Shown: positions 2,215 to 8,787 of the stretch, one piece after another
Position numbering within the stretch: the stretch's first letter is position 1
How the letters are laid out: each line of letters opens with the position of its first letter
From: Nanoarchaeota archaeon
GTDB lineage: Archaea; EX4484-52; LFW-46
DNA length: 8,787 bases
Assembly: GCA_018897155.1 (NCBI GenBank)
Contig: JAHILE010000052.1
Location: forward strand, 1 to 8,787
Reading direction: 5' to 3'
Translations under genes and position numbers: made by a program
Notes under the pieces: generated by a model
The model's database searches: none
What the model was told of the DNA's origin: nothing
Seen by the model: only the letters and a program-made list of their open reading frames with translations

Positions 2215-2296
2215 GAGTTTCACTCTGCGCTTTAACGAAGTCACGAAGTGATTTGGGAAACTCCGCAGAGTTTCCGTTAAAGCGCATGTTAGGCTC
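2215..2296. repeat. attC-like three-way-junction repeat S1 (left end of array)
   Basis: Boxes GAGTTTCAC (2215-2223) and GTTAGGCTC (2288-2296). A perfect 11-bp outer stem pairs GCGCTTTAACG (2227-2237) with CGTTAAAGCGC (2275-2285). Hairpin A is AGTCAC/GTGATT (2239-2253), with a G-T pair at its second position. After TGGG, hairpin B is AAACTC-cgca-GAGTTT (2258-2273). The left box has CAC where the other six repeats have AAC. Confidence 0.8.
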
Positions 2297-2393
2297 CCGC
2301 TCATCAATAGAACCAAAGCGGTCGAGCACCGCAGGGCGAAGCCCGAGGAACGGAGAAGTCGGCGGCGGCTCGCAAGTGCGTCCAGATATTTTT

Positions 2394-2828
2394 CTATACT
2401 TCTAAAATTCCTTCTACTTCGAAATAAAATGGTGGCGAATCGCTGGCTTCACCAACATAATGGATTGTACCTTCAAAAGTTATTGCATGATATTCAATAA
2501 GACTGTAGTTGCGTCCGTCAAAAGTATAACTCACAGTTCTTGAGAGATCAAGAAGGCTAGAACCTTCTTTTGGTATCAATGCAATCTGGTCTGCAGTTTC
2601 CACGTTAAACTCTTTTGAATTATCAAATACCGCTAATTCGTATTCTGGACCAAAGAAATTTCCCACGTTTCTTACTACGACGCCACTAAGAGTAACAGCC
2701 TTGCCATCATACGACTGCGGATTGTCTATAATATCAGAAGCGTTAACTTGTTTTGGTTTTTCTCCAATACACCCGCTAACAAGGAGTATCCCCAGTATCG
2801 CCAACGCCAAAAGATATTTTTGCTTCAT
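2394..2828 (-). CDS. Archaeal lipoprotein with a possible OB-fold-like domain
   Basis: 144 aa. The N-terminus is a lipoprotein signal: MKQKY, a hydrophobic run at 6-17, and lipobox LVSGC with C20 as the predicted lipid-modified residue. The mature part opens with 'ASDIIDNPQSYDGKAVTLSGVV' at about 30-51 (quoted here as ASDIIDNPQSYDGK and VTLSGVV) and then continues as alternating beta-strand-like segments ending 'YFEVEGILEV'. The 'dpe.yDGk.VtvsGvV' pattern is common in small OB-fold lipoproteins of archaea and bacteria, often of unknown function. The protein is probably tethered outside the cytoplasmic membrane. The ATG at 2828 is supported both by the signal peptide and by a TATA box centred 27 nt upstream. 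It is the only gene of cassette I. The lipoprotein call is firm, the OB-fold is tentative, and the function is unknown. Confidence 0.82.
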   Translation of the reverse strand: MKQKYLLALAILGILLVSGCIGEKPKQVNASDIIDNPQSYDGKAVTLSGVVVRNVGNFFGPEYELAVFDNSKEFNVETADQIALIPKEGSSLLDLSRTVSYTFDGRNYSLIEYHAITFEGTIHYVGEASDSPPFYFEVEGILEV

Positions 2829-2850
2829 GCCTTAACATGTGTCTTACCGT

Positions 2851-2858
2851 ATTTATAT
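2851..2858 (-). promoter_or_regulatory. TATA box of the cassette I lipoprotein gene
   Basis: On the - strand this reads ATATAAAT, centred about 27 nt before the ATG at 2828, which implies a leaderless transcript. It lies inside the cassette's inverted repeats, so it would move with the gene. Confidence 0.6.
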
Positions 2859-2912
2859 GCTTTCTGAAATTGTTCGGTAAAAGCCGAATAGTCGTGCGAG
2901 CCGCCGCCGATT

Positions 2913-3007
2913 GAGTTTAACTCGGCGGGTTTACGAAGTCCGAGCGTGGCGAGGATTTGGGTGAAAGCTACGGAGTAGCTGAAACCGTAAAGCCGCTTGT
3001 TGTGCGA
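2913..3007. repeat. attC-like three-way-junction repeat S2
   Basis: Boxes GAGTTTAAC (2913-2921) and GTTGTGCGA (2999-3007); the two boxes do not match each other (4/9). The outer stem GCGGGTTTACG (2925-2935) pairs with CGTAAAGCCGC (2986-2996) with one mismatch. Hairpin A is AGTCC/GGATT (2937-2957) with the G-T pair. After TGGG, hairpin B is a perfect AGCTAC-gga-GTAGCT (2966-2980). Confidence 0.8.
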
Positions 3008-3128
3008 CCCGAAGGGCAAATTGCGAAGCAATTTGAGTTGCGAGCCCGCCCCCGTCGTTGTATCCGCTTAATTTTTATTCGACCATTATACAATATTCTG
3101 ACACAATACCCAAAGAATTTGACAAAAT

Positions 3129-3812
3129 TTACATCACCGGCCGTCGCATTACTTTTTCTACAAGTAATTTATATAACTCGTTTGCAATTAACCTTGCTCC
3201 TTTTTCATTTGGATGGACGGCATCTGAAAAACAATCATCATTAAGAACGGAGCATATGTCTACGAGATATATGTTTTTTGAGTCACAATATCGTTTTAAC
3301 CTTTGGTTGTGGTAATCTCTTCTCTTTTTTGATTCAGCTATAAATTCCCTTGGAGTCATTGATTCATTTAAATACGGAACATTGATTAAAATCGGTTTTG
3401 CCCTTTCCGAAATGACCTGTATCACTTTATTGTAATTATTTATTATTTCCTCGCTAGTTGATTCTAAATCAGACTCCTGTCCCATATCATTTGTTCCAAA
3501 TCCAAGAACAACATACTGGGCATTTGGAAACCGCGTTAGAGCATCTTTTACATAAACTAATTCATCTCTACTGAGTGCTCCAGATATTCCATAGTCTGCG
3601 ACGCCTAATATTTCCGATAGTTTTTCCTGAAGAAATTGAGGGTATGTTGGAAATGGTCCGCTATAAGTTCTTAGTTTTTCCATTCGGATGTTATTCCAGC
3701 CTGTTATGCTATCACCAACACATATAACATCAATTGCCTCTCTTTTTTCTTCAAAGTCAACACTGTCCGCGTCTGAAAAATACAATATTTTAGGTTGTGT
3801 TTTGATCATCAT
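3129..3812 (-). CDS. SGNH/GDSL-type hydrolase
   Basis: 227 aa. All SGNH blocks are visible in order: block I VICVGDSIT (29-37, nucleophile S35), block II glycine in DYGISG (73-78), block III GFGTND (104-109, N108), and block V DAVHPN (197-202, D197 and H200). These supply the Ser-His-Asp triad and the oxyanion-hole Gly and Asn of the fold. Family members deacylate lipids, glycans or other esters; the substrate cannot be read here. There is no signal peptide, so it is probably cytoplasmic. The start is the first of two tandem ATGs; a TATA box is centred about 25 nt upstream and no ribosome-binding site is seen. Its length is usual for a single-domain SGNH enzyme. It sits downstream of the transglutaminase-like gene with a 42-bp gap but has its own promoter. 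Confidence 0.88.
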   Translation of the reverse strand: MMIKTQPKILYFSDADSVDFEEKREAIDVICVGDSITGWNNIRMEKLRTYSGPFPTYPQFLQEKLSEILGVADYGISGALSRDELVYVKDALTRFPNAQYVVLGFGTNDMGQESDLESTSEEIINNYNKVIQVISERAKPILINVPYLNESMTPREFIAESKKRRDYHNQRLKRYCDSKNIYLVDICSVLNDDCFSDAVHPNEKGARLIANELYKLLVEKVMRRPVM

Positions 3813-3833
3813 AACATATTACTGTATTTCAAG

Positions 3834-3841
3834 TTATAAAA
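3834..3841 (-). promoter_or_regulatory. TATA box of the SGNH hydrolase gene
   Basis: TTTTATAA on the - strand lies in the 42-bp gap between the two cassette II genes, centred about 25 nt before the ATG at 3812. A separate leaderless transcript for the second gene is likely. Confidence 0.6.
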
Positions 3842-3854
3842 GATGATACCTTAC

Positions 3855-4523
3855 TCATTCACTAACTTCATTAATTGGGTCAAGAACATAACCAATCCTT
3901 TCAAATTCTTCTACAGGTAAAACGAGGCCGTGAGACTTGATATAAGAACTACAGATACCATGAGGCATAGTAGAATGCCTATAAAGGTCTAATTCGGTGG
4001 GATCAATAATAGCCACGTATTTTTTATCACCAATTTCAAATTCCTTTGCTAAAAAAGTATGAGCCCTCATAGTTCCACTCTCACTAATTCCATGGTAAAG
4101 TTTCCAATCCTTTAAAGCCTCCATCAGTAACAATGTCTCTCCCGTGCAATCAAGCAGGCTGGAATTGATTAATTGGCTTAGTTTAACATTCCCGCTTTCC
4201 AATAATTTCAAATATTCATAAAATATGGCTCTTTGATCTGCATGGGTTGCTCTTGTTTCATTAAGATTTTTATATCGTAAAAAAGGAAGATCGTCTTGCA
4301 TCTTTTTTGAAAATTGATTTGAAGCATTCAATAAGTCTTCAACGTTCATATCAAAGCCTAATCCACCAAATAGTTCTTTATAGTCATCGATTATTTTTTC
4401 TTTGTATTCAACAGGAATATTATCAACAATAATTCTTTGATCCATATCGTCCTTACTTATACCGGGGGCAAATTCTCCAAAATTTTTATGTATAAAACTG
4501 TAAACTTTTTCCAATGTTACCAC
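3855..4523 (-). CDS. Transglutaminase-like (papain-fold) protein
   Basis: 222 aa from a GTG start at 4523. The C-terminal half has the order and spacing of a transglutaminase-like Cys-His-Asp triad: C126 in LLDCTGETLLLMEALK, H155 in MRAHTFLAKEF, and D174 in VAIIDPTE. The sequence 'vDpT' after the His strand is typical of that superfamily, whose members are proteases, amidases or cross-linkers. The N-terminal half (about 1-110) is helical and unrecognised. There is no signal peptide, so it is probably cytoplasmic. The frame is also open from a TTG at 4544, but the TATA-like box at 4546-4555 would then lie almost on the start. A GTG at 4523 (or the adjacent TTG at 4526) gives the 25-28 nt spacing seen at neighbouring genes. 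The superfamily call is moderate and the substrate is unknown. Confidence 0.68.
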   Translation of the reverse strand: MVTLEKVYSFIHKNFGEFAPGISKDDMDQRIIVDNIPVEYKEKIIDDYKELFGGLGFDMNVEDLLNASNQFSKKMQDDLPFLRYKNLNETRATHADQRAIFYEYLKLLESGNVKLSQLINSSLLDCTGETLLLMEALKDWKLYHGISESGTMRAHTFLAKEFEIGDKKYVAIIDPTELDLYRHSTMPHGICSSYIKSHGLVLPVEEFERIGYVLDPINEVSE

Positions 4524-4545
4524 CAATTGATGTTCTATCAGCAAA

Positions 4546-4555
4546 TATTTAAAAA
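4546..4555 (-). promoter_or_regulatory. TATA box of the transglutaminase-like gene
   Basis: TTTTTAAATA on the - strand is centred about 27 nt before the GTG at 4523. This spacing is the main reason for preferring GTG 4523 over the upstream TTG. Confidence 0.5.
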
Positions 4556-4624
4556 TGCCTTACCGCACAATAAATCTACGTACTTTAGCACAATTCGTCG
4601 TATCGTTGGGGCGGGCTCGCAATT

Positions 4625-4709
4625 TCGCACAACTCGGGAATTTTACGAAGTCGCCGTTAGGCGATTTGGGATTTTCCGCAGAAAATCCGTTAAAGCGCAT
4701 GTTAAGCTC
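4625..4709. repeat. attC-like repeat S3 with mismatched outer stem
   Basis: Boxes TCGCACAAC (4625-4633) and GTTAAGCTC (4701-4709) do not match each other (5/9). Hairpin A is a clean AGTCGCC/GGCGATT (4649-4666) with the G-T pair, and hairpin B is a perfect ATTTTC-cgca-GAAAAT (4671-4686). The outer stem is poor: GGAATTTTACG (4637-4647) faces CGTTAAAGCGC (4688-4698). The right arm through the box is nearly identical to that of S1. Confidence 0.75.
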
Positions 4710-4792
4710 TCCGAACGAAGTGAGGACAAGCCGCCGAAGGCGAGCGAAGAGTTCGAAAACCCGCTAACGTATGATGCGGGGCGCAGAAAACA

Positions 4793-5434
4793 TTAGAGAG
4801 TAGCATCCATATTTCCGTGAGAGACAAAGTGCCTCAAATCCCACCATAGAAACCGTGCCAAACTGGCATCCGCAATGGTACTTCCTAATGATTTGACGAG
4901 ATTCTTTCTAAGAAGATTTTCTGTTCTTTTCCGCGATTCATCTACGGTGTTACCTTTTATCAGCGAATCTACAAACAGATTGGATGGCTCAAGAAATAGT
5001 TTCGCGGTTCCGTCATGAAGCGGCCTCGAAATATTTTCTGGCTCATAAGAGAAAATGAAATCATCGTCGTAACCGGTATAGCTTATTGCTCCTGATTCTA
5101 CGCTTTTTGGTCCGAGAATTTTTGCAGACCTGCACGATAAAGCATAAACGATTTTTGACTTTAGCAGACTTTCATTTTCCCCTGCTTTTACTAACGGTTG
5201 ATTATTATGTCCTGTAACCGTGTTGTCGTCTCCGTGGCCGTTTAGCACCACGAGATTGGGAGACATTTTGATTATCATGCTTTCGAATTTTTGCCGGTTT
5301 GCATCCTCACGATTGAGATCCAAAACTTTCATTCCTTTCTTTTGAGCCGCGTTTATCATCTCTTTGTTCCAATAGGATAAATAATGCGTAGTAGTGTCAT
5401 GTTCTGGTCTTGTAACGAGATACGTCTTACTCAT
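4793..5434 (-). CDS. Caspase/gingipain-like (clan CD-type) His-Cys protein
   Basis: 213 aa. The pattern fits a clan CD cysteine peptidase fold (caspase, C25 or CHAT-like). A hydrophobic strand ends in His (NLVVLNGHGDDN, 60-71, H67). About 30 residues later a second strand ends in Cys (SKIVYALSCRSAKILG, 93-108, C101), followed by GAISYTGYDDDFIF (115-128). The order strand-HG, strand-C matches the catalytic His-Cys dyad. The C-terminus (about 140-213) is helical and basic. There is no signal peptide, so a cytoplasmic location is likely. The ATG at 5434 overlaps the end of the 71-aa gene by 8 nt, so translation is probably coupled. In prokaryotes such proteases are often effectors of defence or regulated cell death, but that role is only inferred here. 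Family level moderate; exact family not identified. Confidence 0.65.
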   Translation of the reverse strand: MSKTYLVTRPEHDTTTHYLSYWNKEMINAAQKKGMKVLDLNREDANRQKFESMIIKMSPNLVVLNGHGDDNTVTGHNNQPLVKAGENESLLKSKIVYALSCRSAKILGPKSVESGAISYTGYDDDFIFSYEPENISRPLHDGTAKLFLEPSNLFVDSLIKGNTVDESRKRTENLLRKNLVKSLGSTIADASLARFLWWDLRHFVSHGNMDATL

Positions 5435-5642
5435 ACATTACGCCTTCTTTTATCGCCCTTAAGAACTCCAATTCTACCTCTATCATCTTTTTGCCTATTG
5501 AGTCTTCCTTTTTAACATGATCTATCAGCTCGTCCTTTGTAAACTCGCCTTGTGATCCTATTGAGATTTTCCTATTCGATGGCAGGGTTTCTAAGCGAAC
5601 GATTACAAGCTTCTTTATATCCTCTGAAAGTTCGTCGGTCAT
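5427..5642 (-). CDS. Small acidic protein of unknown function, middle gene of the cassette III operon
   Basis: 71 aa, charged, with no membrane segment and no cysteines. It is predicted mainly helical, with 'GEFTKDELIDHVKKED' at 32-47 followed by a longer helix, KKMIEVELEFLRAIKEG (51-67). I do not recognise the family. Its ATG overlaps the stop of the 60-aa gene in the form ATGA (4 nt), and its own 3' end overlaps the His-Cys protein gene by 8 nt. The tight coupling implies co-translation in fixed proportion. The size and position suggest an adaptor, regulator or antitoxin for the downstream protein, which is inference from layout only. Confidence 0.7.
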   Translation of the reverse strand: MTDELSEDIKKLVIVRLETLPSNRKISIGSQGEFTKDELIDHVKKEDSIGKKMIEVELEFLRAIKEGVMYE

Positions 5643-5821
5643 ATCAATTTCAACTCTTCTAATTTTTTAAGTATCTTTTTGCTTTTATCGGTTTTATTAA
5701 ATATTTCAACATACGCGACATTCCACGTTATCGGCTCGTTGTCAAACACAAGGATTATTTCCTTTCTTAGGTTCAGAGGAATGTTTGCGTATATCTTCAA
5801 AAAGCGCTCTCGAGGGTCCAT
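5639..5821 (-). CDS. Small protein of unknown function, first gene of the cassette III operon
   Basis: 60 aa. It opens MDPRERFLKIYANIPLNLRK, then continues through EIILVFDNEPITWNVAYVEI to a lysine-rich helix, KSKKILKKLEEL (47-58). It has no membrane segment. The composition suggests a small alpha/beta or helical domain, perhaps for protein-protein contact; I cannot name a family. The ATG at 5821 is preferred over an ATG 6 nt upstream in another frame, and a weak TATA-like stretch (5843-5851) is centred about 26 nt away. It leads an operon in which all three genes overlap (60 aa, 71 aa, 213 aa), so the three products probably act together. Confidence 0.65.
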   Translation of the reverse strand: MDPRERFLKIYANIPLNLRKEIILVFDNEPITWNVAYVEIFNKTDKSKKILKKLEELKLI

Positions 5822-5842
5822 GGCATAATATAGACTAGTTTA

Positions 5843-5851
5843 GAATTTAAG
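5843..5851 (-). promoter_or_regulatory. Weak TATA-like box of the three-gene operon
   Basis: CTTAAATTC on the - strand is centred about 26 nt before the ATG at 5821. It is a poorer match than the neighbouring boxes; the operon could instead be read through from the gene upstream. Confidence 0.35.
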
Positions 5852-5887
5852 CTTTCAAGCGACGGATACTTTTCATAAATTAACAAA

Positions 5888-6331
5888 CTATCGCGGATAA
5901 TTTGACTGAATTCCGGTTTGACTTTTGTTTTCAATATTAATGGGAATTACATCCTTAACGATTATCTCTTGACAAGCACGCTGCCATTCAGAACACTTTA
6001 CACCCTTAACTAAATTAGAACCATCCTGAGTACAACGGTATATGATATTTTCACATTCAACAAGTCGTCCATCATACGGGGCCTCAGGAATAGGACAACC
6101 CGTTTTCCTTTGACTAAGCGCAAGTTCAAAACCTCTACAATTTTTAAACTTAGCATAATGATTTTCCAAACTAGAATTTTCGACAACAAGCCAGGTAAAT
6201 CTTTGAGTCTCCATAGTAGTATAGCCAAAACAAAGCCTTTTAGATGCACATGTAGAAGTATCTTTTGGAAACGCGAAAACAATCAATAGACCCATAACCA
6301 AAATTAAAAGTGTCCTTTTTGTAATTTGCAT
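5888..6331 (-). CDS. Secreted or membrane-anchored cysteine-rich protein, unknown function
   Basis: 147 aa from the ATG at 6331. The N-terminus MQITKRTLLILVMGLLIVFAF is a signal peptide or N-terminal anchor (basic start, hydrophobic to about residue 21; listed here as MQITKRT plus LLILVMGLLIVFAF). The rest has eight cysteines (C28, C34, C65, C79, C93, C100, C113, C120), an even number that suits four disulfides in an extracellular domain. I see no lipobox or known fold. A GTG at 6346 in the same frame would add five residues before the basic start; the ATG gives a better signal peptide. No strong Shine-Dalgarno sequence is seen, and a TATA box about 69 nt upstream would give a leader of roughly 40 nt. 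It precedes the three-gene operon by a 66-bp gap in the same cassette, but no functional link is evident. Confidence 0.72.
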   Translation of the reverse strand: MQITKRTLLILVMGLLIVFAFPKDTSTCASKRLCFGYTTMETQRFTWLVVENSSLENHYAKFKNCRGFELALSQRKTGCPIPEAPYDGRLVECENIIYRCTQDGSNLVKGVKCSEWQRACQEIIVKDVIPINIENKSQTGIQSNYPR

Positions 6332-6395
6332 CGCATATAACCCCACACAAATCGGTCTTTGTATTGCTGCTTCTATGAACTATTAGTCATCCCTG

Positions 6396-6404
6396 TTTAA
6401 ATAC
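6396..6404 (-). promoter_or_regulatory. Candidate TATA box of the Cys-rich protein gene
   Basis: TATTTAAAC on the - strand lies 65-73 nt before the ATG at 6331, so the transcript would have a leader of about 40 nt. This is unlike the leaderless neighbours. The rest of the stretch 6347-6665 between genes holds the inner inverted-repeat arms, repeat S4 and its tail. Confidence 0.4.
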
Positions 6405-6518
6405 ATTTCCATTCATACCCCATCATACCGAATAATTAATTGTTGAACTGATCGTTGTCATTCCTCAAATCTGCGCCCCACTCACGTAAATGTGAAAAAG
6501 TAGGCGGGTTTTCGAATT

Positions 6519-6602
6519 GAGTTTAACCTTTGGGATTTTGTCGAGTCGCGTAGCGATTCGGACGGAGCCATAGGCGTAGTGACAAAATCCTTTGTTAAGT
6601 GA
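6519..6602. repeat. attC-like three-way-junction repeat S4
   Basis: Boxes GAGTTTAAC (6519-6527) and GTTAAGTGA (6594-6602) match only 5/9. A perfect 10-bp outer stem pairs GGATTTTGTC (6533-6542) with GACAAAATCC (6581-6590). Hairpin A is GAGTCGC-gta-GCGATTC (6543-6559) with the G-T pair. Hairpin B is AC-gga-GCC-ata-GGC-gta-GT (6562-6580). The linker is GG, shorter than the TGGG of the others. Confidence 0.8.
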
Positions 6603-6665
6603 CCTCAACCAATATCAACAAAAGGCGACGGAGCGAAGCGGAGGAGAGTCGAAAGAAAGAGCACG

Positions 6666-7589
6666 TTATAATATGTTATTCAGAATTATCTCCGATTGCA
6701 AATTTTTTCTTTTTTTCAAAAATTCTTTAATAGCATTTATTCCCGAATCTGTATCTTTCATTGTTTTTGCAATATTTCTAAATTCTGGAGGTTTAAGGCG
6801 CAACAAAGAATATTGAACGTCCTTTTTTTCAGCAGAATCTTCTTCCTCGCTAAGAAGTATTTTGTCATATGCTGCTAATGTAGGGTTTATTTTTCTCAAA
6901 CTATCGTAAAACTTATAACCCATATAGAATAGACCAATGCCCCCTACGGAATACCCCGTATCCGAATTTAAAACTGCAAGAAATTCTGATATACTTCCTA
7001 AGTAGATATTTCCGTAAACGAAAACTTTTGCAATTTCGCCCGATGGGTGATATTTTTCAATTTTAGATAACCTATTTATACTATTCTCTTCTGGCAACCA
7101 TTCGTTAGATCTCCAAGGTAGTATGAATGAATTTGGATGAACATATGCACTTAATGGATCCCGAATACATTCTATGATTTCATGCCGTTTTATTTTTTTG
7201 AAATACTCCAAATCATCTTCTTTTCCAAAAGATACTTCTGCAATAGGAATTTTAGTTTTGTCTAATTTTATCCATTTCAGTTGTCCGCCAAAATATCCTT
7301 GTTCTCCCTCAATTATGGAAACCCAGTCGGGATTTGTGTTATATTCCGAAATAAAATATTCATAGGTTTCATCGGCTAATTCTAATTTCCTTTTTTTAGT
7401 CATTCCAAATTGATACCAATGTTTTTTGAAAAAATTGTTTTGCTCAAGTGTATCAATGGCTTTTTGTTTCAAATCATCTTTAAGTTCATAGGCTTTTTGT
7501 AAAAAGGTTTCTCCGCGAGTTGAAAATTCTTTTGGTGTTTCTTTTTCAAAGGGGAATACTCCTAAGAAATCTAGTTCGTCAACATACAT
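6666..7589 (-). CDS. 307-aa protein of unknown function
   Basis: 307 aa, no signal peptide and no clear membrane segment except a short glycine-containing hydrophobic stretch at about 213-227 (VGGIGLFYMGYKFY, within 214-228). Aromatic residues and lysine are abundant. A HEIIE motif at 136-140 followed by H151 recalls metal-binding motifs of some zincins, but the surrounding sequence does not fit a peptidase family I know. Other conserved-looking segments are YVHPNSFILPWRSNEWLP (149-166) and VFVYGNIYLGSISEFLAVL (about 190-208). The C-terminus is lysine-rich. The ATG at 7589 is set by a good TATA box centred about 27 nt upstream. The gene is visibly more A/T-rich than the abiE genes and is the only gene of cassette IV. 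It could be a defence or phage-derived protein, but nothing in the sequence proves it. Confidence 0.75.
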   Translation of the reverse strand: MYVDELDFLGVFPFEKETPKEFSTRGETFLQKAYELKDDLKQKAIDTLEQNNFFKKHWYQFGMTKKRKLELADETYEYFISEYNTNPDWVSIIEGEQGYFGGQLKWIKLDKTKIPIAEVSFGKEDDLEYFKKIKRHEIIECIRDPLSAYVHPNSFILPWRSNEWLPEENSINRLSKIEKYHPSGEIAKVFVYGNIYLGSISEFLAVLNSDTGYSVGGIGLFYMGYKFYDSLRKINPTLAAYDKILLSEEEDSAEKKDVQYSLLRLKPPEFRNIAKTMKDTDSGINAIKEFLKKRKNLQSEIILNNIL

Positions 7590-7612
7590 ACTTTAATTAC
7601 TTATTGATGGTT

Positions 7613-7620
7613 TTTATAAA
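7613..7620 (-). promoter_or_regulatory. TATA box of the 307-aa protein gene
   Basis: TTTATAAA is centred about 27 nt before the ATG at 7589, with no ribosome-binding site between. It is the best TATA match in the window and implies a leaderless transcript. Confidence 0.65.
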
Positions 7621-7665
7621 TATTCTCCTTTTTGTAAATAGACATTTGTGCTCTTTTTTTCGATT

Positions 7666-7749
7666 TCACTTAACGTATCGCGGATAAAAGAAGTTGCCGA
7701 AGGCAATTTGGGCGGAGCGTAGCGAAGCCTTTTATCCGCTGTTGTGCGA
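7666..7749. repeat. attC-like three-way-junction repeat S5
   Basis: Boxes TCACTTAAC (7666-7674) and GTTGTGCGA (7741-7749) match 6/9. The outer stem GCGGATAAAAG (7680-7690) pairs perfectly with CTTTTATCCGC (7729-7739). Hairpin A is AGTTGCC-gaa-GGCAATT (7692-7708) with the G-T pair. Hairpin B is GGC-gga-GC-gta-GC-gaa-GCC (7711-7729), sharing its last base with the outer stem. Bases 7678-7749 are identical to 8078-8149 in S6. Confidence 0.85.
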
Positions 7750-7796
7750 GTGCGATAGTACCGAAGCGTAGCGGAGAGTTCACGGAGCCCCGCCAG

Positions 7797-7985
7797 TTAT
7801 TTTTTCTCGTAAAATTTTGGATTAATAATAGATATTAATAAACCAATTATTAATCCAACTGCCATTCCTTTTGCGTATGGATTTAAACTGAAAATATCTC
7901 CTAAAAATTCTACAAAGATTCCAGTTATTGCTCCAACAACTGCAAGTATTCCCAAAGTCAATAAGAGTTTTTTGGTATCCATCAT
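7797..7985 (-). CDS. Small two-helix membrane protein, unknown function
   Basis: 62 aa. Two membrane segments are clear: about 7-27 (LLLTLGILAVVGAITGIFV) and about 38-55 (AKGMAVGLIIGLLISIIN). A short loop containing FLGDIFSLNPY lies between them, and the tail is charged (KFYEKK). It begins with tandem ATGs. Unlike its neighbours it has a good ribosome-binding site, AAAGGAG, ending 11 nt before the first ATG, and a TATA box 41-49 nt upstream that would give a leader of about 20 nt. A second A/T-rich box at 8004-8012 would give a leaderless transcript instead. It is the sole gene of the shortest cassette. Small two-helix proteins can be toxins, holin-like proteins or subunits of larger complexes; none of these is shown. 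Confidence 0.72.
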   Translation of the reverse strand: MMDTKKLLLTLGILAVVGAITGIFVEFLGDIFSLNPYAKGMAVGLIIGLLISIINPKFYEKK

Positions 7986-8025
7986 AATTTAACATCTCCT
8001 TTCTTTTAAATAGTTTTTATTCGAC

Positions 8026-8034
8026 CTTTAAATA
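8026..8034 (-). promoter_or_regulatory. TATA box of the 62-aa protein gene
   Basis: TATTTAAAG on the - strand lies 41-49 nt before the ATG at 7985. It would give a short leader carrying the AAAGGAG ribosome-binding site. A competing box, TATTTAAAA at 8004-8012, sits about 23 nt before the ATG. Confidence 0.45.
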
Positions 8035-8065
8035 ATCTTCTTTTTGAGGCGGGGCGGAGTGAATT

Positions 8066-8149
8066 TCGCACAACGTTTCGCGGATAAAAGAAGTTGCCGA
8101 AGGCAATTTGGGCGGAGCGTAGCGAAGCCTTTTATCCGCTGTTGTGCGA
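8066..8149. repeat. attC-like three-way-junction repeat S6
   Basis: The boxes TCGCACAAC (8066-8074) and GTTGTGCGA (8141-8149) are perfect complements, the only repeat in which this holds. The outer stem GCGGATAAAAG (8080-8090) pairs with CTTTTATCCGC (8129-8139), with unequal spacers of 5 and 1 nt. The inner hairpins are identical to those of S5. Confidence 0.85.
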
Positions 8150-8164
8150 AGTTGCAATATTATG

Positions 8165-8611
8165 TCACCCCATTTTTTTCTTAACATATGCTAGGCATTT
8201 TTCATTTTTGCATTCCTTACAAACAAATAGTTTGATTTCAGCAAATGCTATAATAAACAACACCCAAAAGACAAACAATAAGATTTTTGTTTTCCAAAGC
8301 CAAAATTGAGGAAATACAAATAGGACTGTCAGGGGTAGTATCGCTCCTAATATATCCCAAAAACTATAATTACTTTGTTTCCTTGGTGGCAGCCACTTTG
8401 ATAACTTACCTGGGAAAATATGACCACATGAATCTAACCTACAAATACACTTTGAGCAATAGGAGTAAATGAGTATTGGTATAGAGATCAGAATGGTTGC
8501 AATATACACTAACCCCATCAGAAAGGATTCGCCCAATATAGCTAATAGTCCAATCAAAATTGATAAGAATATCAAAGACAAACTGGAAACACCATGAAAT
8601 CTATTATTCAT
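8165..8611 (-). CDS. Polytopic membrane protein with cysteine clusters, possible zinc-binding
   Basis: 148 aa from the ATG at 8611. Hydrophobic segments at about 10-30, 31-51, 87-103 and 109-128 suggest four membrane passes. Two cysteine clusters flank the second pair: C52-x2-C55-x-C57-x4-C62-x-H64 after helix 2, and C131-x2-C134-x4-C139 near the C-terminus. Both would lie on the same side of the membrane and could together bind metal, like a split zinc ribbon. The frame is also open from a TTG at 8638, but that start would fall 11 nt from the cassette edge and precede any promoter. The ATG has a GGTGG stretch about 7 nt upstream and an A/T-rich box at 8627-8635. Family and function are not recognised. 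Confidence 0.7.
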   Translation of the reverse strand: MNNRFHGVSSLSLIFLSILIGLLAILGESFLMGLVYIATILISIPILIYSYCSKCICRLDSCGHIFPGKLSKWLPPRKQSNYSFWDILGAILPLTVLFVFPQFWLWKTKILLFVFWVLFIIAFAEIKLFVCKECKNEKCLAYVKKKMG

Positions 8612-8626
8612 TTTAAATCCACCACC

Positions 8627-8635
8627 TATTTTTAG
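8627..8635 (-). promoter_or_regulatory. Weak TATA-like box of the polytopic membrane protein gene
   Basis: CTAAAAATA on the - strand is centred about 20 nt before the ATG at 8611. It abuts the cassette edge, so any promoter for this gene must lie in the last 38 bp of the cassette or in the neighbouring repeat. Confidence 0.3.
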
Positions 8636-8640
8636 CAATT

Positions 8641-8728
8641 TCGCACAACTCTGGGTTTTTGCGAAGTCGTGAGCGAAGCGAACGATTTGGGCGAACCAGA
8701 GTGAGCCGTAAAAACCCTTGTTCAGCGA
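8641..8728. repeat. attC-like three-way-junction repeat S7
   Basis: Boxes TCGCACAAC (8641-8649) and GTTCAGCGA (8720-8728) match 7/9. The outer stem GGGTTTTTGCG (8653-8663) pairs with CGTAAAAACCC (8707-8717), with one G-T pair. Hairpin A is AGTCGT-ga-GC-gaa-GC-ga-ACGATT (8665-8687) with the conserved G-T pair. After TGGG, hairpin B is short (GGC/GCC). The right box sequence is new in the window, so a different cassette should start here. Confidence 0.8.
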
Positions 8729-8787
8729 TCCGAACGAAGTGAGGGCAAGGCACGAAGTGCCGAAGAGTCGCCCCCGCCCGTCAAGAA
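8720..8787. other. Left end of a seventh cassette, cut by the window edge
   Basis: After GTTCAGCGA the sequence has the G/C-rich tail seen after S2, S3 and S5, with a small hairpin (GCAC-gaa-GTGC, 8750-8760) and a run CCCCCGCCC at 8771-8779. The run resembles the inner inverted-repeat arm of cassette II. No coding region is visible before the edge. Confidence 0.5.

Follow-up and report, generated by a model that had tools for sequence, protein, structure and literature searches.

A probable integron-like gene-cassette array associated with XerA-type recombinases in an archaeal order

Introduction

On contig JAHILE010000052.1 of a Nanoarchaeota archaeon (GCA_018897155.1), seven structured repeats separate six blocks of genes, and the question raised by this locus is whether the repeats are recombination sites that delimit mobile gene cassettes and, if so, to what kind of system they belong. 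The stretch analyzed here (the window) is the complete contig, C52, of 8787 bases, from a 1.43-Mb, 96%-complete archaeal assembly. A preliminary description, made from the sequence alone, had taken the repeats for attC-like sites of an integron-like array and suspected a divergent type. Our analysis indicates that the window is very probably part of a mobile gene-cassette array, which would belong to an integron-like system of this archaeal order. The evidence, taken throughout from fragments of metagenome-assembled genomes, comprises the anatomy of the sites and their covariation, the strand that folds, a pairing rule between neighboring sites, private outer stems, a clade of recombinases lying at a constant end of the arrays, and a platform next to the recombinase gene.

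Results and Discussion

Structure and Distribution of the Sites

All seven repeats (S1–S7) were recovered at the positions previously given for them, with AAC (CAC in S1) as the left limit and GTT as the right one, and the longest open reading frame (ORF) is on the minus strand in all six enclosed blocks, in line with the earlier account of genes on one strand. That account needs correction in two respects: the window is an entire contig, so that the array runs off its right end, and the repeats reach past their AAC...GTT limits to include outer stems and, at the GTT end, a branch. The branched inner fold, which had been remarked upon as unlike a simple attC hairpin, is real, as the window sites alone yield a consensus structure with double changes in 13 of 24 pairs. 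S1–S7 share an 11-bp core stem that is free in sequence while its pairs are kept, an inner arm bounded by AAGTN...NATTT, and a second arm beginning with GGG. Over 77 aligned matches, three of which repeat a site as read on the opposite strand, 94.4% of the stem cells are paired; shuffling lowers the share to 68%, and sliding the partner lowers it to 54% or less. The figure of 94.4% is favored because the alignment was fitted to the structure. Folding energies of single sites on the plus strand are lower than expected for S1, S2, S4, and S6 (z = −2.4 to −5.3) but reach only z = −1.2 to −2.0 for S3, S5, and S7, so that not all sites are significant individually.

A covariance model built on S1–S7 detected nine further sites (E ≤ 0.01) spread over five more contigs of the window's genome, several of them in arrays, and sites in 26 of the 34 genomes of the order, a count that was the same with a wider model (R2). 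Model R2 had no match in a class 1 integron region, and a scan of viral contigs for the site pattern found none. Among 100 right boxes, GTT is kept in 95, of which 43 read GTTATRY and 30 GTTRRRY. The central spacer is unpaired and asymmetric, with 3–5 nt facing 1–2 nt in most sites, as in integrons, but an extra base in the L stem, the extrahelical feature of canonical attC sites, was seen in only 2 of 100. Elsewhere in the window's genome, sites also occur singly or in pairs with no recombinase detected close by (L034, 6583 and 7272; L035, 6542; L036, 2390).

Pairing across Cassettes

If the sites delimit cassettes that have a circular stage, the GTT-side box of each site should originally have formed one hairpin with the AAC-side box of its neighbor. 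Across 60 pairs of neighboring sites, these facing boxes match at 7.88 of 9 bases, 26 pairs being perfect, whereas the two boxes within one site match at 6.05 of 9, which is the value for shuffled boxes (6.05, with a maximum of 6.58 in 10,000). The remaining mismatches between facing boxes are mostly G.T wobbles (29, vs. 5 A.C). At the level of sequence patterns, this matching is the mark of circulating cassettes that reinsert at AA^C (G^TT on the gene strand).

Past the box, each cassette has its own outer stem of 12–19 bp, split over its two ends; in 36 of 58 pairs, this outer complementarity lies above the null's 99th percentile. Box and outer stem are separated by exactly 2 nt at the AAC end and usually by 28–69 nt at the GTT end, where the insert often forms small hairpins and mostly has GAAGAG or GAGAAG at its end; in cassette 6, by exception, the facing boxes run on into a short outer stem and the branch insert is absent. 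When the circle junctions of window cassettes 1–6 were joined in silico, each gave one tree-like fold of −29.7 to −58.1 kcal/mol, the same ends folded apart reaching −15.8 to −39.3 kcal/mol. In canonical class 1 cassettes, the box rule holds in two neighboring pairs (8/9 each) and the outer stem is absent, although this is a weak control for outer stems, made of two true neighboring pairs and one nonadjacent pair.

Folding Strand and Gene Orientation

Stem pairs read on the plus strand include 199 G.T versus 36 A.C, one conserved pair supplying 96 of the G.T, and mini-hairpin loops of the C-GNA-G type, a closure exceptionally stable in DNA (PMC4686876), number 59 on the plus strand, 0 on the other strand, and 1.8 in shuffles. 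Judged by these sequence biases, the folding strand is the strand opposite the cassette genes, and it carries loops of the DNA mini-hairpin type. In 44 of 57 cassettes, including all six of the window, the longest ORF and the fold are on opposite strands, an arrangement equal to the bottom-strand rule of integrons (PMC2727003).

A Clade of XerA-Type Recombinases Linked to the Arrays

No IntI above the NCBIfam TIGR02249 cut-off was found in the window's genome or in any of the 34 genomes of the order, while both positive controls, IntI1 and a Shewanella phage IntI, passed (506 and 394 bits, the cut-off being 265). What the window's genome does encode is three related XerA-type enzymes, one intact on contig C43, one with a broken frame on C46, and one on C19 that is presumed to be the housekeeping copy. 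The C43 and C19 proteins and two array-linked relatives score 235–266 bits with the archaeal XerA model NF040815 (cut-off 220) and fall under the IntI cut-off; the two true IntIs behave in the reverse manner and stay below the NF040815 cut-off. In alignments with IntI4 of PDB 2a3v and with IntI1, the array-linked enzymes are missing the region of the IntI-specific insertion, about 40 residues. The preliminary description had looked for a recombinase with this insertion, and only insertion-less enzymes were found; it had also held that a genome devoid of site-specific recombinases would undo its reading, and here two site-linked ones are present, one of the two being intact.

In the phylogenetic tree, the seven array-linked recombinases all group within one clade of 14 (support 94/94), apart from ten XerA-type genes that are presumably housekeeping XerA. 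According to site and gene coordinates, the array-linked recombinase is always on the GTT side of the array. Seven clade members have no detected site, and six of these are on contigs that end near the expected position of the array. The two IntIs, the only ones included in the tree, are placed in a larger group that also contains the array-linked clade (support 87/90). Searching named genomes for relatives of the C43 recombinase returned only two remote bacterial matches.

Decayed recombinase fragments of about 95 aa were also seen in two genomes, beside the same ATPase-like gene (L112, 2139–2429, minus strand; L137, 216–491, plus strand), and are possible platform remnants.

An attI-Like Platform beside the Recombinase Gene

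A simple hairpin that starts right after AAC adjoins 12 of the 14 clade recombinases; one of the contigs with a clade member but no detected site begins with the platform bases TAAC. The part of this platform that follows AAC is alike among relatives and the box that precedes it varies; between the platforms of G005 and G017, which belong to two families, homology starts exactly at AAC. The left box of the platform agrees with the GTT box of the nearest array site at 59 of 63 bases, against a permutation mean of 41, only 2 of 5040 permutations being as good. Placed beside the recombinase and starting at AAC (GTT on the gene strand), as attI is in integrons, the platform is, as far as its sequence goes, the expected picture of an attI-like insertion point, although it is a hairpin and not an unstructured site.

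Two loci of the window's genome illustrate this arrangement. On C46, the order is a SecY gene, a site, an alpha-amylase-like cassette, the platform, and the broken recombinase; on C43, a 3.9-kb stretch with DNA methyltransferase genes adjoins the platform and the recombinase. Because contigs of the system carry archaeal genes, aIF-2 on C43 and SecY on C46, bacterial contamination is argued against.

Several metagenome contigs are broken at or near the junction of platform and array (L127, at position 1; also L128, L129, L131, and L141), as expected if the neighboring cassettes vary in the population. The array cargo of L032 (2044–6525) includes a GmrSD-type restriction gene, in an upstream cassette at the C43 locus, and two DNA methyltransferases, and is defense-like. 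A circularly permuted version of the site was also encountered, in which the ATTTGGG arm comes first, followed by a stem, a loop with the GTTA box, a stem, and the AAGT arm. It exists in five near-identical copies from three genomes (L032, 3920; L110, 697 and 6350; L111, 5934, minus strand; L126, 2533), several of them close to a platform or recombinase, and is perhaps a product of aberrant hairpin processing or else a separate element.

Mobility and Proposed Working of the System

Cassette 3 has a homologue with 86% identity at a different locus in the other genome of the genus, and the homology ends at 6527, the last base of AAC. It is the only window cassette with a long match in that genome. 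The flank 1–2214 is not conserved, and a homologue of the cassette 1 gene region (66%) was found in a genome of another family. A gene order shared by all relatives had been named as an outcome contrary to the array reading, and the displaced homologue of cassette 3 contradicts it and indicates that cassette order is not fixed, the comparison being with one genome of the same genus.

In the mechanism that we propose, a cassette is a gene together with a recombination site. Read along the plus strand, it would consist of C, the spacer, the 11-bp core stem with its two inner arms, the GTT box, the branch hairpins, the outer stem, the gene on the minus strand, the complement of the outer stem, AA, and the box ending in AA. 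The strand opposite the coding strand would become single-stranded and fold into the branched site, and a XerA-type tyrosine recombinase of the array-linked clade would cleave this site at AA^C (on the gene strand, G^TT), freeing a cassette circle in which both halves of the cassette's own box stem and outer stem are reunited. The circle could then insert at a different site, or next to the recombinase gene at the attI-like hairpin. The cutting chemistry, the exact crossover base, the circles, and the identity of the recombinase acting on the window array are inferred.

Weighing the Alternatives

Several observations weigh against the reading of the window as part of a recombining cassette array. 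The array's own recombinase is absent from its contig and has to be deduced, as the contig ends before it. Of the genome's two clade recombinases, the C46 copy has a broken frame, and on C43 some 4 kb separate the array from its recombinase, with no further sites found between them, the assignment of the array to that enzyme being based on a 9/9 box match. The recombinase gene occurs in two orientations, and the longest ORF is on the other strand in 13 of 57 cassettes. No recombinase without the insertion is known, to our knowledge, to recombine single strands in folded form as integrons do, and recombination itself is deduced here from sequence.

The array could alternatively be a canonical integron array lacking its integrase (CALIN), mobilized by an ordinary IntI from elsewhere. 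The AAC and GTT boxes, the genes on one strand, and the facing-box rule, which also holds in the two canonical class 1 pairs, would be expected in this case, and archaeal IntIs and CALINs have been published (PMC9668308). We nevertheless regard such an origin as unlikely: the profile that detects true IntIs finds none above its cut-off in the 34 genomes, 98 of 100 sites are devoid of extrahelical bases, outer stems are not in the few canonical cassettes tested, and it is a different recombinase clade, with its own platform, that adjoins the arrays. Since all the recombinases concerned are of one XerA-type family, and one gene of the XerA clade (G016:C45) is less than 2 kb from a site, the housekeeping XerA might instead recombine the sites as folded dif mimics, in the style of Xer-exploiting elements, the linked recombinases being incidental. 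We think this quite improbable, given that in the separate clade 7 of 14 genes adjoin arrays, always at the same end and each with its own platform carrying an array-matching box, and that six of the other seven are on contigs ending near the expected array.

A branched fold conserved with covariation is also what structured RNA elements (terminators or regulators) or REP-like repeats would show when lying between genes without recombining. However, partners of the boxes and outer stems are paired across whole genes, up to 4.5 kb apart, and because pairing spans genes we reject this explanation, which is very unlikely also in view of the loops of DNA mini-hairpin type and the linked recombinases and platforms. 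Terminal inverted repeats of a transposon were considered and rejected, as the window encodes no transposase and the boxes follow those of neighboring sites.

What stood of the earlier proposal is an integron-like cassette array in an archaeal genome, for which we find boxes, genes on one strand, and, in the same genome and its relatives, a linked tyrosine recombinase and an attI-like platform; membership in the integron family as defined did not stand, the IntI-specific insertion and the extrahelical bases being absent. The suspicion of a divergent type proved right. Because the working seems integron-like but two defining features fail, we refer to an integron-like system with a XerA-type recombinase. 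We lean toward regarding it as a separate single-strand cassette-capture system, with an insertion-less XerA-type recombinase, its own Y-shaped core, and private outer stems, either parallel to integrons or descended from a stage before the IntI domain.

Comparison with Known Systems and Implications

The likeness to integrons extends to the AAC...GTT limits, box complementarity running cassette by cassette, genes opposite the folding strand, an asymmetric central spacer, a branched terminal structure as in large VCR sites, a recombinase gene and platform at one end, high cassette diversity, and defense cargo. By contrast, the recombinase is of XerA type and has no IntI-specific insertion, extrahelical bases are missing, the core is Y-shaped with an AAGTN...NATTTGGG junction, outer stems private to each cassette are accompanied by a GTT-side branch, the platform is itself a hairpin, and the box reads GTTATRY more often than GTTRRRY. 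Ghaly et al. (2022) detected archaeal integrons by means of IntI and attC models, and the IntIs of those integrons possess the extra domain (PMC9668308). With the archaeal XerA and XerC-like chromosome dimer resolvases (NF040815, PDB 4a8e), the array-linked enzymes share protein family, length, and a score above the family cut-off, but they form a separate clade tied to arrays and platforms, the presumed housekeeping XerA being encoded by another gene of the genome. Single-stranded integration of the CTX phage likewise involves a Xer enzyme, XerC, acting on a folded single strand, but by a different route (PMC7790495), through dif mimicry rather than diverse sites and without cassette arrays or a recombinase or platform of its own. 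In the integron-like subgroup of tyrosine recombinases described by Smyshlyaev et al. (2021), the insertion is not fully conserved, and the parts of that study available to us tie no insertion-less member to a cassette array (PMC8138268). Our literature search yielded no other report of a matching system.

In the current view, IntI owes the recombination of single strands to its extra domain, which made integrons possible (PMC7790495). If our reading is true, a cassette system that folds single strands without this domain represents another solution or a missing intermediate, and may thus be a second or transitional way to build a gene-capture machine. Outer stems bear on how a new gene acquires a site: as each gene sits inside the base of its own hairpin, templated (fold-back) formation of cassette sites is suggested, though only as a speculation. 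Such systems would escape any search that requires IntI.

Cassettes and Other Features of the Window

The sites and cassettes of the window are listed in table 1. Because the window spans the whole contig, the array should continue past its right end; a continuation was sought in the same genome by matching the outer stem of S7, and no partner was found. A Pfam search with the 144-aa cassette 1 protein gave no match.

Table 1. Coordinates of Sites and Cassettes in the Window (Each Cassette Runs from a Site Core through the AA of the Next Box).
Feature	Position	Strand	Details
S1 site core	2221..2290	+	CAC at 2221, GTT at 2288; last site, integrase-distal
S2 site core	2919..3001	+	AAC at 2919, GTT at 2999
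S3 site core	4631..4703	+	AAC at 4631, GTT at 4701
S4 site core	6525..6596	+	AAC at 6525, GTT at 6594
S5 site core	7672..7743	+	AAC at 7672, GTT at 7741
S6 site core	8072..8143	+	AAC at 8072, GTT at 8141
S7 site core	8647..8722	+	AAC at 8647, GTT at 8720; its gene lies past the contig end
Cassette 1	2223..2920	-	Lipoprotein-like protein, 144 aa (2394-2828, -); outer stem 2359-2374 / 2895-2910
Cassette 2	2921..4632	-	SGNH/GDSL hydrolase (3129-3812, -); unknown protein (3855-4544, -); outer stem 3038-3052 / 4608-4622
Cassette 3	4633..6526	-	Unknown proteins (4793-5434, 5427-5642, 5639-5821, 5888-6346, all -); outer stem 4752-4764 / 6504-6516
Cassette 4	6527..7673	-	Unknown protein (6666-7589, -); outer stem 6649-6664 / 7648-7663
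Cassette 5	7674..8073	-	Membrane-like protein, 62 aa (7797-7985, -); imperfect outer stem ~7779-7794 / 8048-8063
Cassette 6	8074..8648	-	Membrane-like protein, 157 aa (8165-8638, -)
Cassette 7 (start)	8649..8787	+	S7 core, box, branch, and beginning of outer stem; cut by contig end

An AbiEi-like/AbiEii-like gene pair (532–2134; PF09407, PF08843) lies on the plus strand of the window immediately outside S1, the terminal site, and converges with the cassette genes. At L037 (10174–14808), the RNA polymerase B subunit seems, from translations only, to be split into genes of 501 and 611 aa with others between them.

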